Below are positions 866-8,040 of a stretch of 35,307 nucleotides of DNA, piece by piece (position 1 is the first letter of the stretch; each line of letters starts with the position of its first letter). The notes under the pieces are model-generated. The model made no database searches. It was not told where the DNA came from and was given only the letters and a program-made list of their open reading frames with translations. The DNA lies in contig CAJVZM010000007.1 in NCBI GenBank assembly GCA_913020475.1, positions 1 through 35,307 on the forward strand, given 5' to 3'. The translations under genes were made by a program, and so were the position numbers. This DNA is from an uncultured Flavobacteriaceae bacterium (GTDB lineage: Bacteria; Bacteroidota; Bacteroidia; Flavobacteriales; Flavobacteriaceae).

Positions 866-919
866 GTGAAAACATTAAATCATCATATACATATTCTATT
901 AACCGATCAAATGAGGTAA
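866..919 (+). CDS. Candidate his leader peptide MKTLNHHIHILLTDQMR (GTG start)
   Basis: 17-codon ORF with His codons CAT CAT ATA CAT at 881-892, between a promoter-like element and a terminator hairpin upstream of hisG; too short for the ORF track. Confidence 0.7.
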   Translation: MKTLNHHIHILLTDQMR

Positions 920-941
920 AGGATGTGTATTGACTATACTG

Positions 942-972
942 AAAACCCGTTTGATTTCAAACGGGTTTTTTT
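942..972 (+). terminator. Intrinsic terminator/attenuator of the his operon
   Basis: AAAACCCGTTTG-ATTT-CAAACGGGTTTT is a perfect 12-bp stem with a 4-nt loop followed by T's, 16 nt before the hisG ATG. Confidence 0.85.
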
Positions 973-988
973 ATAAAATATATTTACA

Positions 989-1840
989 ATGATAAAAATT
1001 GCGATTCAAAAATCAGGGAGACTCAATGATGAATCTCTGGGAATACTCAAAAAGTGCGGCATTTCAATTGACAATGGTAAAGACCAACTCAAAGCTTCTG
1101 CCAGAAATTTTCCCATGGAGGTGCTTTATCTTAGAAATGGTGACATACCACAATACCTGAGAGATGGGGTAGTAGACTTGGCAATCATTGGTGAAAACCT
1201 TATTCATGAAAAAGGAAAGGACTTGAGCATCATTGAGAATTTAGGTTTTTCCAAGTGTCGTGTCTCAATAGCTGTACCTAAAGAAATTGACTTCAACAAT
1301 ATTAAACAACTCAATGGTAAGCGCATCGCCACTTCCTATCCCAATACCGTCCAACAATTTCTGGATGAAAACGGAATTTCTGCCGATCTACACATCATTA
1401 ATGGGTCTGTAGAAATAGCTCCCAATATTGGACTGGCAGATGCCATCTGCGATATCGTTTCCAGTGGCAGTACTTTGTTTAAAAATAACCTTAAAGAAGT
1501 TGCTAAAATAATGGAGTCTCAAGCAGTATTGGTTCAATCTCCAAATTTGTCTTCAGAAAAATCTGAGATAATTGACAAATTACGTTTCCGGTTAGGAACT
1601 GTTTTACGGGCTAAAAAATCAAAATACATATTGTTGAATGCCCCCAATGATAAAATAGAAACTATCAGTGAAATTCTTCCTGTTCTAAAAAGTCCAACCG
1701 TATTACCTCTAGCTCAGAAAGGATGGTCTTCTTTGCACTCTGTGATTGACGAATCCTCTTTTTGGGAAGTCATTGACGAGTTGAAAGCCGCGGGGGCAGA
1801 AGACATCTTGGTTTGTCCAATCGAAAAAATGGTTTTGTGA
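989..1840 (+). CDS. hisG: ATP phosphoribosyltransferase
   Basis: MIKIAIQKSGRLNDES... start, DAICDIVSSGSTL motif, first gene of the his operon. Confidence 0.97.
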   Translation: MIKIAIQKSGRLNDESLGILKKCGISIDNGKDQLKASARNFPMEVLYLRNGDIPQYLRDGVVDLAIIGENLIHEKGKDLSIIENLGFSKCRVSIAVPKEIDFNNIKQLNGKRIATSYPNTVQQFLDENGISADLHIINGSVEIAPNIGLADAICDIVSSGSTLFKNNLKEVAKIMESQAVLVQSPNLSSEKSEIIDKLRFRLGTVLRAKKSKYILLNAPNDKIETISEILPVLKSPTVLPLAQKGWSSLHSVIDESSFWEVIDELKAAGAEDILVCPIEKMVL

Positions 1841-3129
1841 TGCAGCGTTTTATGAATCCCACCCCTGATCAATGGAAGGATTTAACCCAAAGGGGTTCTG
1901 CCTCCTATGCTTCCCTAGAGCCTTTGGCCAAAGAGGTCTTTGACGATGTTGCCAAAAACGGAGATCAAGCATTAATGAATTATACCGAAAAATTTGACAA
2001 AGTTAAATTGGAAGATTTTTCTGTCAGTGCCGAGGAAATTGAGGTAGCTAGGTCCCTTGTGCCAGAAGAATTAAAGTTGGCCATCCAAAAAGCAAAAGAA
2101 AACATCTATCGTTTTCACATAGCTCAAAAGACCAAAGAAGTCAAAGTTGAGACCCAGATTGGTGTCAATTGTTGGCAAAAAAAATTACCTATCGAAAAGG
2201 TTGGCTTATACATTCCTGGAGGATCTGCACCCTTGTTTTCCACCATTTTGATGTTGGCCATTCCCGCTCAAGTCGCTGGATGTAGCGAAGTTGTATTATG
2301 CTCACCACCAAATGCTTACGGGAAAATACCTGATGTAATACTTTATACTGCAAATCTTTGTGGTGTCGATAAGATATTTAAGGTGGGAGGAATGCAAGCT
2401 ATCGCTGGTATGACCTTGGGAACAGTAACCCTACCCAAAGTGGATAAACTTTTTGGGCCTGGAAATCAATATGTAACTGTAGCCAAGCAGTTGGCCACCC
2501 AATACCAAGTGTCTATTGACATGCCCGCAGGGCCCAGTGAGTTGATGGTTGTCGCTGATGCTTCTGCCGATGAGGCATTTGTCGCCTCGGATCTATTATC
2601 TCAAGCCGAGCATGGTCCTGACAGTCAAGTGCTGTTGGTTACTACAGACATTAAAATCATTGACCAAGTCGATGCGGAAGTCGAAAAGCAAATTACTACA
2701 TTAGAACGTCAAGATACCGCCCGAAAAGCGCTGGACAACTCAAAAATCATCTATTTCGATTCGGAAACAGAGGCTTTGGCATTTACCAATTTTTATGGAG
2801 CGGAACACCTGATAGTATGCCTTGAAAACGAGAACGATTTTGTAAATCAAATCAAACACGCTGGTTCTGTGTTTATTGGCAACTACACCCCCGAAAGTGC
2901 AGGTGATTATGCTTCCGGCACCAATCACACTTTACCCACAAACGGCTATGTGAGGCAATACAGTGGGGTGAATTTGGATAGTTTTTTAAAAGCCATTACC
3001 TATCAGAAAATAACCGCTCAAGGGTTACTAGATTTGGGGCCCGTGATTGAAGAAATGGCTAGTGCAGAAGGCTTACAAGCCCACAAGAATGCTGTTTCAA
3101 TACGGTTAAAAAAGCTTAGTAATGAGTGA
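1840..3129 (+). CDS. hisD: Histidinol dehydrogenase
   Basis: YIPGGSAPLFSTILMLAIPAQVAG, GPGNQYVTVAK and SAGDYASGTNHTLPT motifs; ATG at 1840 overlaps the hisG stop (TGATG), more likely than the ORF-track start at 1813. Confidence 0.97.
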   Translation: MQRFMNPTPDQWKDLTQRGSASYASLEPLAKEVFDDVAKNGDQALMNYTEKFDKVKLEDFSVSAEEIEVARSLVPEELKLAIQKAKENIYRFHIAQKTKEVKVETQIGVNCWQKKLPIEKVGLYIPGGSAPLFSTILMLAIPAQVAGCSEVVLCSPPNAYGKIPDVILYTANLCGVDKIFKVGGMQAIAGMTLGTVTLPKVDKLFGPGNQYVTVAKQLATQYQVSIDMPAGPSELMVVADASADEAFVASDLLSQAEHGPDSQVLLVTTDIKIIDQVDAEVEKQITTLERQDTARKALDNSKIIYFDSETEALAFTNFYGAEHLIVCLENENDFVNQIKHAGSVFIGNYTPESAGDYASGTNHTLPTNGYVRQYSGVNLDSFLKAITYQKITAQGLLDLGPVIEEMASAEGLQAHKNAVSIRLKKLSNE

Positions 3130-4171
3130 TTCTGAAATAGTACAATTAGTTAGACCTTTGGTCATTGAGATGGCTCCCTATCGTTCGGCTAGGGATGAAT
3201 TTGAGGATTTTGATGCTCAGAAAATTTTTTTGGATGCCAATGAAAACCCCTATAACACTAATGTTAATCGTTATCCCGATCCGTTACAGCGTCGTTTAAA
3301 ACGAGTTTTGGCAAAGGTAAAAGGGGTATCCGCTGATCAAATATTGCTGGGAAATGGTAGTGACGAAGTATTGGATCTGATCTTTCGCACCTTTTGTGAG
3401 CCTGGTCAGGACGAAGTGATTTTATTGCCACCTACGTATGGAATGTATGGGGTATTGGCTCAACTGAATAACGTCAAAGCGGTTGATGTTCCGCTCGATG
3501 ACAATTTTCAATTGGATATAGCGTCCATTATGTCGTCGGTGAACGAAAATACCAAAGTTATTTTTGTGTGCAGTCCCAACAATCCTAGTGGAAACGCCAT
3601 TCCCTTTGAACAGATTGAAATACTGTTAAAGCGTTTTAAAGGTTTGGTAGTAGTGGATGAGGCTTATATAGATTTTTCTGAACAAATAAGCGCATTGAGC
3701 TTATTGGAAACCTATCCTAAACTGATCATTTGTCAAACCCTCTCCAAAGCCTATGGACTGGCAGGGATACGTTTGGGCATTGGCTTTGCAAACCCTGAAA
3801 TTATTGATTTTTTTAATAAAATCAAAGCCCCTTACAATGTCAATGTATTGACCCAAAAAACAGCTTTGGTATCCCTGAATGCTCCGACTGTTGTGAAACG
3901 ACAGGTTAAAACTTTGATTGAAGAACGTCAAAAAATGGAAAGAGAATTGCCCGCTTTTGGCTTTGTCAATAAAATCTATCCCAGTGATGCCAACTTTATA
4001 TTGATTCAAGTGGACGATGCCCAAAAGCGTTACGACCAGTTTCTGGAACAAGGCATAGTGGTTCGTAATCGTTCCTCTCTTTTGGGTTGTGAAAATACAC
4101 TCCGCATTACGATAGGGACAACCGAGGAAAATATTACATTTATTAACGTTTGTAAATCCATAGATCAATGA
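3122..4171 (+). CDS. hisC: Histidinol-phosphate aminotransferase
   Basis: PLP class I/II aminotransferase motifs [34 protein letters not shown]; operon context. Confidence 0.97.
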
Positions 4172-5298
4172 AAAAAGTTTTGTTCATCGACCGAGACGGT
4201 ACACTTACTTTAGAACCGGGAGATTATCAAGTTGACACCTTTGAGAAACTGATTTTTTATCCTCAAGTTTTTTGGTATTTGTCAAGTATAGTTAAAGAAT
4301 TGGACTATGAATTGGTGATGGTTACCAATCAAGATGGTTTGGGAACCGATAGTTTTCCTGAGGAAGAATTCTGGCCCTATCAGAATCATTTGGTAAAGTC
4401 CTTTGAAAATGAAGGAGTGATTTTTTCCGAAATACTCATTGATCGTACTTTTCCAGAAGACAAAGCCGATACACGCAAACCGGGAACTGGAATGCTGACA
4501 GCATATATAAATAATCCAGAGTATGATTTATCAAATTCCTATGTTATCGGGGATCGATTGACAGATATGCAATTGGCGAAGAATTTAGGTTCCAAGGGGA
4601 TTTTCATTGATAATAATGCTGATTTGGGAGCGGATGAAGTAACTGATACGGCCTTGGAGGAAACTATTGTACTAACCACTAACCGCTGGGAGAACATCTA
4701 CCGTATGCTTTTGTTAAAGGAGCGCGCAGTGCGATTGGAACGAAATACCAAGGAAACAAAAATATCAATTGATTTAAACTTGGATGGATGTGGAAAAAGT
4801 CAGATCGACACTGGAATTGCTTTCTTTGATCATATGCTAGATCAATTGGCCCGTCATGGGGGAGTTGATTTGAACATAAAAACCATAGGTGATCTAGAAG
4901 TCGACAAACACCACACCATAGAAGATACCGCTATTGCTTTGGGAGAAATTTTCGCTAAGGCATTGGGCGACAAAAAAGGGATAGAACGCTACGGATTTAC
5001 ACTGCCCATGGACGATGCATTGGCACAAGTGGCGCTTGATTTTGGTGGCAGAAGTTGGTTGATTTGGGAAACAGAATTCAAAAGAGAAATGATAGGCCAA
5101 ATGCCAACGGAAATGTTCTACCACTTTTTTAAATCCTTTGCAGATGGAGCCAAGGCAAACCTTAACATAAAAGCAGAGGGAAACAATGAGCACCATAAAA
5201 TTGAATCTATTTTTAAAGCTTTTGCTAAAGCGATTAAAATGGCAATAAAGAGAGATGCTGAAAATATGATTTTACCTTCCACCAAAGGAACCTTGTAG
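4168..5298 (+). CDS. hisB: Bifunctional histidinol-phosphatase / imidazoleglycerol-phosphate dehydratase
   Basis: HAD N-terminus [12 protein letters not shown] plus IGPD domain ([31 protein letters not shown]). Confidence 0.97.
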
Positions 5299-5299
5299 G

Positions 5300-5881
5300 A
5301 TGAAAATCGTCATTGTAGATTATGATGCAGGAAATGTAAAAAGTTTACAGTTTGCATTAGAACGCTTAGGTGTAAAGGCACAAATCACTGCCGAACTAGA
5401 AGAGATTTCTAATGCTGATAAAGTAATTTTCCCTGGTCAAGGGGAGGCTGCGAGTGCTATGAATAAACTCAGGTCAAATGGATTGGATTTGTTGATTCCA
5501 AAATTGAAGCAACCGGTTTTGGGGATCTGTTTGGGCATGCAGTTATTTTGTAAAAAAACCGAAGAAGGAGATACCAAATGTTTGGGTATCCTCCCTGTTG
5601 AAGTAGTCCGTTTTCCAAATACCGTGAAAGTCCCTCAAATGGGATGGAATTTGGTCAATCATAATGAGAACGGATTGTTTAAAGGAATCGAGCAAGATTG
5701 TTATATGTATTTAGTTCATAGTTATTTTGTTCCAATAACCACGAGCACTTCAGCGAGGAGCGTTTATGCTGGAATTTACAGTGTAGCAGTAGAAAAAGAT
5801 AATTTTTATGGAGTACAATTTCATCCCGAAAAGAGCAGTAATGATGGTTTGTGCTTGTTGGAAAATTTTTTAAATATTTGA
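5300..5881 (+). CDS. hisH: Imidazole glycerol phosphate synthase subunit HisH
   Basis: DYDAGNVKS, glutamine amidotransferase [10 protein letters not shown], and GVQFHPEKS. Confidence 0.97.
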
Positions 5882-5882
5882 T

Positions 5883-6611
5883 ATGAGAATCATCCCTGCC
5901 ATAGATATCATTGATGGGAAATGCGTTCGATTGACCAAAGGAGACTACGCCACCAAAAAAACTTACAACGAAGATCCTTTAGAGGTTGCAAAGGCTTTTG
6001 AAGACAGTGGGGTTTCTTTCCTTCATGTTGTCGATTTGGACGGTGCCAAAGCCAAAAGTATTGTCAATCACAAAGTGCTTGAAAACTTAGCTACCCATAC
6101 AGATTTAAAGATTGACTTTGGAGGAGGATTGAAATCCGATGCAGATATAGAGATTGCATTTGAATGTGGTGCTCATCAGGTTACTGGTGGGAGCATCGCC
6201 GTTAAACAGGTGGATATCTTTCAGAAATGGATAAAACAGTATGGAAGTGACAGAATCATTTTGGGGGCCGATGTGAAAGAAGACCGTATAGCGGTAGGGG
6301 GGTGGGCTGAAACCTCCGAAGAACAAATTATACCCTTTATTAAAAGGTACCAGGAGGAAGGAATTCAATACGTTATATGTACAGATATTAGTAGGGATGG
6401 AATGTTAGAAGGTCCAGCTTTTTCTCTCTATCAGTCCTTATTGTCCGAATGTCCGACCATCAAATTGATTGCCTCAGGTGGAGTTTCAGATATTCAGGAA
6501 TTACCTCTATTGGCCGAGTTGGGCTGTGAAGGTGTGATTATCGGTAAAGCGATTTATGAAAAAAAAATCAGCCTGAAAAGTTTAGAAAAGTTGATTGTAA
6601 ATAAGCCCTGA
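5883..6611 (+). CDS. hisA: Phosphoribosylformimino-5-aminoimidazole carboxamide ribotide isomerase
   Basis: [38 protein letters not shown]. Confidence 0.97.
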
Positions 6612-6614
6612 ATT

Positions 6615-7376
6615 ATGTTAGCAAAGAGAATTATCCCTTGTTTAGATATCAAAGGCGGACGAACCGTTAAGGGGGTCAATTTTGTTGACCTGAGAGACGC
6701 TGGTGACCCTGTCGAATTGGCCACCCGATATACAGAGGAGGGAGCCGATGAGTTAGTATTTTTAGATATATCGGCAACGGAACAAAAAAGAAAAACTTTA
6801 GCGGACTTAGTATTGAGGGTAGCCGCTGCATTGGACATTCCTTTTACGGTAGGAGGCGGAATCAGCAGCGTAGAGGATGCCAAAATATTGTTACAAAATG
6901 GCGCAGACAAGGTTTCGGTCAATTCTGCAGCTGTAAGAAGACCAGATTTGATCAATGAATTGGCTGATGCATTTGGTCGTCAGTGTGTCGTTGTTGCTAT
7001 TGATGCCAAAAAGATAGAAGACCGTTGGCTTGTTCATTTGGTAGGAGGGAAGGTGCCAACTACTAATGAGCTATATGTGTGGGCCAGAGAAGCCGAAATA
7101 CGAGGAGCTGGAGAAATCCTCTTTACCTCTATGGATCACGATGGAACAAAAAATGGATTTGCCAATGAAGCTCTTTTAGAATTGACACAAACCGTCAACA
7201 TTCCTATCATAGCTTCGGGAGGAGCTGGAAATACCTCACATTTTGTTGATGTTTTTAAAGTGGGAAAAGCCGATGCTGCTTTGGCAGCCAGTGTTTTTCA
7301 CTTTGGGGAAATCCCTATTCCTGCACTCAAACAGACTTTAAAAAATGAAAATATCGCAACAAGAATCATTAAATGA
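6615..7376 (+). CDS. hisF: Imidazole glycerol phosphate synthase subunit HisF
   Basis: [50 protein letters not shown]. Confidence 0.97.
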
Positions 7377-7440
7377 AACCGATATGATTATTTTTATGAT
7401 TAGAGGTTAGATATAATTCTGAAAAAATATAAATCAAAAC

Positions 7441-8040
7441 ATGAAAAAAGCTGACTTTAATAAAGATTCCAATGGCTTATTACCCGCCATTATTCAAGAT
7501 GTTCAAACCCACAAAGTATTAATGCTTGGTTATATGAATGAAGAGGCCTTAAAGATTACTCAATCCACGGGTAAAGTCACTTTCTACAGTAGGAGTAAGC
7601 AACGCCTTTGGACTAAAGGAGAGGAAAGTGGAAATTTTCTAAATTTTAATTCGTTTAAAGTAGATTGTGATCTTGATGCTTTATTGGTTTTTGCTGATCC
7701 AACAGGCCCGACTTGTCATACGGGAGCTGACACTTGTTGGGAAGAAGAAAACGCCTCAGAATTTTCTTTCATTGGTGAATTGGAAAATGTGATTGAAAAA
7801 AGGAAGTCTGATCCCCAGAAAGATAGCTATATAAGTAGTTTGTTTGATATGGGTTTGGATAAGATTGCTCAGAAAGTAGGTGAGGAGGCTGTAGAGACAG
7901 TCATAGAGGCGGTTGCAGAACGAGAAGATTTATTCATGGAGGAGGCTGCAGATTTGTTTTTTCACTACTTGATATTACTTAAATCCAAGGGCAAAAGCTT
8001 AAAAGACATTGGAGCTGTATTAAATAAGCGAAAGGGCTAG
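7441..8040 (+). CDS. hisIE: Bifunctional phosphoribosyl-AMP cyclohydrolase / phosphoribosyl-ATP pyrophosphatase
   Basis: HisI motifs SRSKQRLWTKGEESGN and DPTGPTCHTG; HisE C-terminus KVGEEAVETVIEA. Confidence 0.96.
   Translation: MKKADFNKDSNGLLPAIIQDVQTHKVLMLGYMNEEALKITQSTGKVTFYSRSKQRLWTKGEESGNFLNFNSFKVDCDLDALLVFADPTGPTCHTGADTCWEEENASEFSFIGELENVIEKRKSDPQKDSYISSLFDMGLDKIAQKVGEEAVETVIEAVAEREDLFMEEAADLFFHYLILLKSKGKSLKDIGAVLNKRKG

Follow-up and report, generated by a model that had tools for sequence, protein, structure and literature searches.

A predicted ribosome-mediated transcription attenuator with a histidine-rich leader peptide upstream of the his operon in Bacteroidota

The his locus and its leader region

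The window, i.e. the whole stretch of 35,307 nucleotides from an uncultured Flavobacteriaceae bacterium that was analyzed here, contains a complete hisG-D-C-B-H-A-F-IE operon directly 3' of a short leader. The features of the locus are as follows (all on the + strand where a strand is given):

3-821, upstream of the leader: SPFH/HflK-like gene at the start of the window (weak match)
829-861, + strand: Bacteroidota-type promoter, TTTG at 829-832 and the TAnnTTTG box TATATTTG at 854-861, spacer 21 nt (read from the sequence)
866-919, + strand: leader ORF VKTLNHHIHILLTDQMR, 17 codons, GTG start, TAA stop (translation of the sequence; His-run ORFs in homologues)
881-892, + strand: putative regulatory codons CAT CAT ATA CAT, His His Ile His (read from the sequence)
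883-904, + strand: 5' arm of helix P1 (region 1), overlapping the His codons (MFE fold of 866-975 and of the leader alone)
906-916, + strand: 5' strand of the antiterminator (region 2), within the last leader codons, a near-copy of the terminator 3' arm (folds, swap test, alignment)
915-933, + strand: 3' arm of helix P1; the loop 905-914 contains the antiterminator strand (same folds as for the 5' arm)
941-972, + strand: intrinsic terminator, 941-953 paired with 958-970, T966-972 (fold, dG -17.2; covariation)
946-955, + strand: region 3, the 3' strand of the antiterminator, common to the terminator 5' arm (folds, alignment)
989-1840, + strand: hisG, first gene of the operon (NCBIfam TIGR00070, E=1.1e-56)
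1813-8040, + strand: hisD, hisC, hisB, hisH, hisA, hisF and hisIE (NCBIfam equivalogs, each over its cut-off)

A 17-codon ORF with an HHIH run upstream of hisG had been described in the original prediction, and we recovered it at 866-919. His codons occupy positions 881-883, 884-886 and 890-892, with ATA (Ile) at 887-889, so that a short predicted ORF carries tandem codons for the amino acid of the operon it precedes, as in an attenuator. ORFs with at least three His in seven codons appeared in 0.65% of the shuffles of the window's own upstream region. The closest relatives of the window have only 2–3 His codons (NYHAH in locus L031, HTH in locus L043) compared with 4–6 typically found elsewhere, and judging from these sequences control may therefore be weaker in the window's clade.

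The Bacteroidota -7 box at 854-861 ends exactly 4 nt 5' of the leader start codon. The same spacing is found in 19 of 19 loci listed for the close marine clade, in which either GTG or ATG serves as the start codon at one and the same place. From this constant spacing and the alternating start codon, the leader peptide ORF is probably leaderless or nearly so, with a predicted 5' end. The end of the terminator is only 18 nt away from hisG, hence transcription arriving from upstream must cross the terminator as well.

Terminator, antiterminator and a third helix

The terminator hairpin is located between the leader ORF and the first gene of the operon. It consists of 13 pairs (12 Watson-Crick and one G-U) followed by seven T. 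It had been drawn earlier as a perfect 12-bp hairpin plus T-run at 942-972; hairpin and T-run are present, but the helix is one pair longer and includes the G-U pair. A simple terminator scan did not list this hairpin, presumably as its outer A-U pairs enter the T-run; the fold is unambiguous.

In the antiterminator 906-913 (AUCAAAUG) pairs with 948-955 and, beyond a bulged A914, G915-G916 pair with C946-C947, giving 10 pairs with a dG of -11.5. This helix uses bases 946-953 of the terminator, and the two structures are mutually exclusive. The competing helix originally placed at 905-912/949-956 is therefore real, but it is longer and positioned at 906-916/946-955. The 110-nt leader (866-975) has a z of -5.2 in comparison to dinucleotide shuffles.

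An architecture of only two helices, as suggested at first, turned out to be wrong. A third helix, P1, covers the His codons and consists in the window of 19 pairs (883-904:915-933) around the loop 905-914. Counting P1 pairs in one fixed alignment register gave a weak signal (57.6% of cells paired), as P1 shifts in register from one species to another. P1 was judged instead by a register-free swap test of the segment from the start codon to the His codons against the segment following the stop codon, in which it proved sequence-specific (z=-8.3, 99 non-redundant sequences; z=-7.0 for the Flavobacteriia-type group and z=-4.3 for the rest). In 92 of 99 homologue folds at least four pairs of a P1-like helix surround the antiterminator strand, and folds of the segment from start codon to terminator have a mean z of -2.3 (99 sequences). 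Since P1 requires ribosome-free His codons, its formation should be limited to untranslated leaders, in which it probably enforces termination.

Two further structures were considered and rejected. An arrangement in which P1 crosses the antiterminator like a pseudoknot was dropped; full folds place the antiterminator strand in the upper part of P1. A local hairpin P2 between stop codon and terminator, the supposed partner of the antiterminator state, was weak (mean z -0.5) and beat the shuffle mean in 65 of 99 sequences.

Conservation of the leader across Bacteroidota

The set of hisG upstream regions was drawn first from the same family and GTDB genomes and was then widened to 297 genomes of the phylum, with 80 further upstream regions added. 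A His-rich leader followed by a terminator is present in 175 of 216 usable Bacteroidota regions. ORFs of 8–40 codons with at least three His within seven codons occur in 82% of 141 non-redundant upstream regions, compared to 2.1% both in dinucleotide shuffles and on the reverse strand, and 1.6% in windows elsewhere in the 35 kb. The leaders of 99 non-redundant homologues contain 361 CAT and 57 CAC codons and 42 of the 99 use both; the mixture of the two codons with the frame being kept indicates that the residue is conserved rather than the bases. Carriers include Kordia, Cellulophaga, Zobellia, Maribacter, Aquimarina, Lutibacter, Tenacibaculum, Portibacter, Ancylomarina and a Marinifilaceae MAG.

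Some leaders upstream of hisG look different. In loci L202, L204-L207, L210, L212 and L214 very His-rich leaders (9–10 His in most) were found with no intrinsic terminator detected before hisG; the bases close to their stop codon appear self-complementary, as in GTGCACTAATTCTACGCAC. Leaders in L156, L159, L165 and L166 end in HHFHHSS directly before the stop codon, which is spanned by an inverted repeat (in L166, ATTCCTCTTGAGAGGAAT); in these loci as well no intrinsic terminator was found downstream of the leader.

Co-variation of antiterminator and terminator

The segment following the His codons was paired with the terminator 5' arm of its own genome and with the arms of other genomes, in a swap test that needs no alignment. 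On average, the own pairing gained 3.7 kcal/mol over the foreign ones (z=-13.7 for 99 non-redundant sequences; 0 of 5000 permutations), with z=-5.5 for the Flavobacteriia-type group and z=-9.9 for the rest. For two pairings used as controls, z was -1.8 and +0.3. In an alignment of 53 sequences 89.6% of the antiterminator cells are paired, with 10 cells changed on both sides, a number reached by 0 of 500 shuffles. For the terminator the respective values are 98.3% of cells paired and 4 pairs changed on both sides, again in 0 of 500 shuffles. Alignment of hisG upstream regions from related Bacteroidota had been proposed along with the original prediction as a check for conserved His codons and covariation in both helices, and both were found.

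The sequences themselves illustrate the matching. Flavobacteriia leaders end in CTCAAGCGAGG or similar (QAR or QAS followed by the stop codon), which is a near-copy of the terminator 3' arm; the terminator 5' arm is CCCGTTTGAG. Antiterminator and terminator sequences change together: CUCAAGCG/CGUUUGAG, GGUAAGC/GCUUACC, GCGCCGG/CCGGCGU and GCAGGUAG/CUACCUG. Beyond Flavobacteriia they are different but mutually matching, at the DNA level GGTAAGC with GCTTACC, GCGCCGG with CCGGCGT and GCAGGTAG with CTACCTG.

A covariance model and its specificity

From the 53 sequences we built a covariance model (R1), which matched 55 of 61 family genomes at E<=0.01. At E<1e-6 its matches in the 61 genomes lie just upstream of hisG with the exception of L258, which precedes a hisG remnant, L259, which is a terminator after another gene, and one short contig of genome G049. 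Eight secondary matches of R1 away from hisG were inspected; one is the match before the hisG remnant (L258) and the others look like plain terminators. L258 (G027:C11:11500-14700) retains the his leader and the beginning of hisG, followed by non-his reading frames. A full-length hisG was not found in this genome, and the locus is probably a broken his operon. In a phylum-wide search R1 reached Flavobacteriia and a few others; distant clades need models of their own because their terminator sequence differs.

In the window, none of the Rfam 15 families, including RF00514 His_leader, RF01692 Bacteroid-trp and the T-box, reached its gathering score. When 11 loci were searched permissively, only weak sub-threshold matches came up, the best of leader type being Thr_leader and Phe_leader, while RF00514 had no match in these loci at E<=1.

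Proposed mechanism

The leader has a defined anatomy, it is conserved, antiterminator, terminator and P1 co-vary in a sequence-specific manner, the spacing of its elements is kept, and it is nearly restricted to hisG. We consider it very probable that it acts as a ribosome-mediated transcription attenuator of the his operon. For the scheme below we infer the histidine dependence, the stalling, the start site and the role of P1.

RNA polymerase would start near 864-868, and a ribosome would begin to translate the leader ORF at the 5' end of the transcript or close to it. When His-tRNA runs short, the ribosome would stall at 881-892, covering the P1 5' arm and leaving 906-916 free. This strand could then pair with 946-955 as soon as the latter has emerged, which would consume the terminator 5' arm and allow transcription to continue into hisG-IE. 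With ample His-tRNA the ribosome would reach the stop codon at 917 and cover 906-916, so that the hairpin 941-970 could form and transcription would end near 972. Without translation P1 (883-904:915-933) would keep 906-914 in its loop, again leading to termination.

The spacing fits the geometry of stalling and release that had been put forward for this locus. Measured from the first base of the last His codon, the antiterminator strand begins at a median distance of 16 nt, and it runs up to the stop codon (median distance 0 nt). By the usual figures for a ribosome footprint, the strand is accessible during a stall at His and covered once the ribosome has reached the stop codon. Simulated folding agrees: with a ribosome on the His codons the antiterminator reached 0.97–1.0 once the RNA extended to 954-957, while it stayed at 0.0 with the ribosome at the stop codon and at most 0.13 without a ribosome. 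At full length and equilibrium the terminator beats the antiterminator in all cases, even with a ribosome on the His codons, and the switch must therefore act kinetically, during transcription. Attenuators are generally thought to switch in this way.

Other explanations for the leader

The hairpin could also be no more than the terminator of the upstream SPFH/HflK-like gene (3-821), the short ORF being a chance frame. The stretch from 821 to the promoter showed no other terminator, and an SPFH homologue adjoins hisG in 72 of 131 loci. In the remaining 59 of 131 loci, however, no SPFH homologue was found beside hisG, and these mostly carry the same leader. The His runs are far above chance, the promoter box sits between the SPFH gene and the leader, and the terminator changes in step with a strand of the leader ORF, which would otherwise be unexplained. 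We therefore regard this explanation as very unlikely, although the hairpin could serve as an additional terminator of the SPFH gene.

Those His-rich leaders that lack a detected intrinsic terminator (e.g. L202, L204-L207, L210, L212 and L214) suggest a different output, in which the hairpin would be secondary; Rho-dependent termination, control of hisG translation and reinitiation on hisG would be candidates. Yet in the window and in most of the phylum the hairpin with its T-run co-varies with the antiterminator, and such an output appears very improbable here. The least probable of all is control of the operon by a T-box (tRNA-sensing), riboswitch or protein-binding leader with an incidental ORF. 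Firmicutes his genes are indeed under T-boxes and the HisR repressor (PMC9413887), but the Rfam searches described above speak against such elements, the T-box covariance model matched neither the window nor the leader loci, and the conserved element is a His run with its frame kept and synonymous changes.

Relation to known leaders

The original prediction regarded ribosome-mediated his attenuation as well established in Gammaproteobacteria. This holds true, leader-peptide attenuation of his operons being classical in enterobacteria (PMC8305728), but the mechanism is not confined to this group, since ribosome-mediated attenuation has also been predicted in Actinobacteria and Firmicutes (PMC1262725; PMC2965389; PMC9413887). 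A 2021 survey of his genes in the superphylum describes attenuation for E. coli and Salmonella only (PMC8305728). Like the Bacteroidota leader, RF00514 His_leader of Gammaproteobacteria combines a short His-rich leader peptide with alternative antiterminator and terminator upstream of hisG. In the Bacteroidota leader, by contrast, the antiterminator strand is encoded in the last leader codons and placed in the P1 loop. The gammaproteobacterial his leader has a longer series of segments.

His-rich leader peptides with alternative terminator and antiterminator before his operons have also been predicted in Firmicutes (Bacillus cereus group, Peptostreptococcaceae, Erysipelotrichales), i.e. in another phylum and in a handful of lineages (PMC9413887). 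The leaders of the hisS paralogue and of hisZ in bacilli likewise combine a His leader peptide with a terminator and differ in phylum and gene; no earlier amino-acid leader-peptide system outside Proteobacteria and Actinobacteria was known to the authors of that study (PMC2965389).

Within the phylum the closest parallel in kind is the Bacteroidota trp leader RF01692 Bacteroid-trp (listed in PMC2864571), where a run of the regulated amino acid (WWW) precedes a terminator before trpE. Its codons are Trp and its sequences are others. Six trpE loci of relatives match RF01692. Upstream of trpE in L291-L294, L297-L301 and L303 we observed leaders with WWW runs, usually with a terminator. In several Flavobacteriia the best pairing partner for the end of the trp leader (CGTCGTGA) is the loop and 3' arm of the terminator, in contrast to the his leader, which pairs with the 5' arm. 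Short ORFs with Thr runs, e.g. TTTTTTITTTR and STTTTTTP, were seen upstream of an aspartokinase-type gene (L310, L312, L313, L316, L321). Three of these loci were searched and had no Rfam leader match, and the space between ORF and gene showed no clear terminator. The runs themselves are suggestive of a threonine attenuator of this type. A leader of ilvD was also sought but did not appear consistently.

In the literature searched, mostly without subscription papers, we found neither a description of the Bacteroidota his leader nor a described transcriptional regulator of Bacteroidota his genes. Vitreschak et al. 2004 reportedly mentions candidates in Bacteroidetes/Chlorobi and may contain an earlier prediction of a Bacteroidota his attenuator. 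The Bacteroidota his leader is new to Rfam; the kind of mechanism, ribosome-mediated attenuation, is already known.

Implications

A broader reading, which we put forward tentatively and hold to be somewhat short of an even chance, is that of a phylum-wide family of his attenuators with an independent architecture, in which the antiterminator strand is contained in the last leader codons and shown in the loop of a helix over the His codons. In the window's marine clade the leader would then lie at the very 5' end of the RNA, ribosome and polymerase being coupled from the first bases, and some lineages would have lost the terminator while the same kind of leader was kept with another output.

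The predicted attenuator provides a concrete regulator with a covariance model for the his genes of one of the commonest bacterial phyla. More than 100 natural variants with joint changes of antiterminator and terminator are useful for studying attenuator evolution. Leader-peptide attenuation may be general in Bacteroidota, with His described here, Trp in Rfam and perhaps Thr. Such control would imply that transcription and translation in Bacteroidota are coupled tightly enough for ribosomes to control termination.
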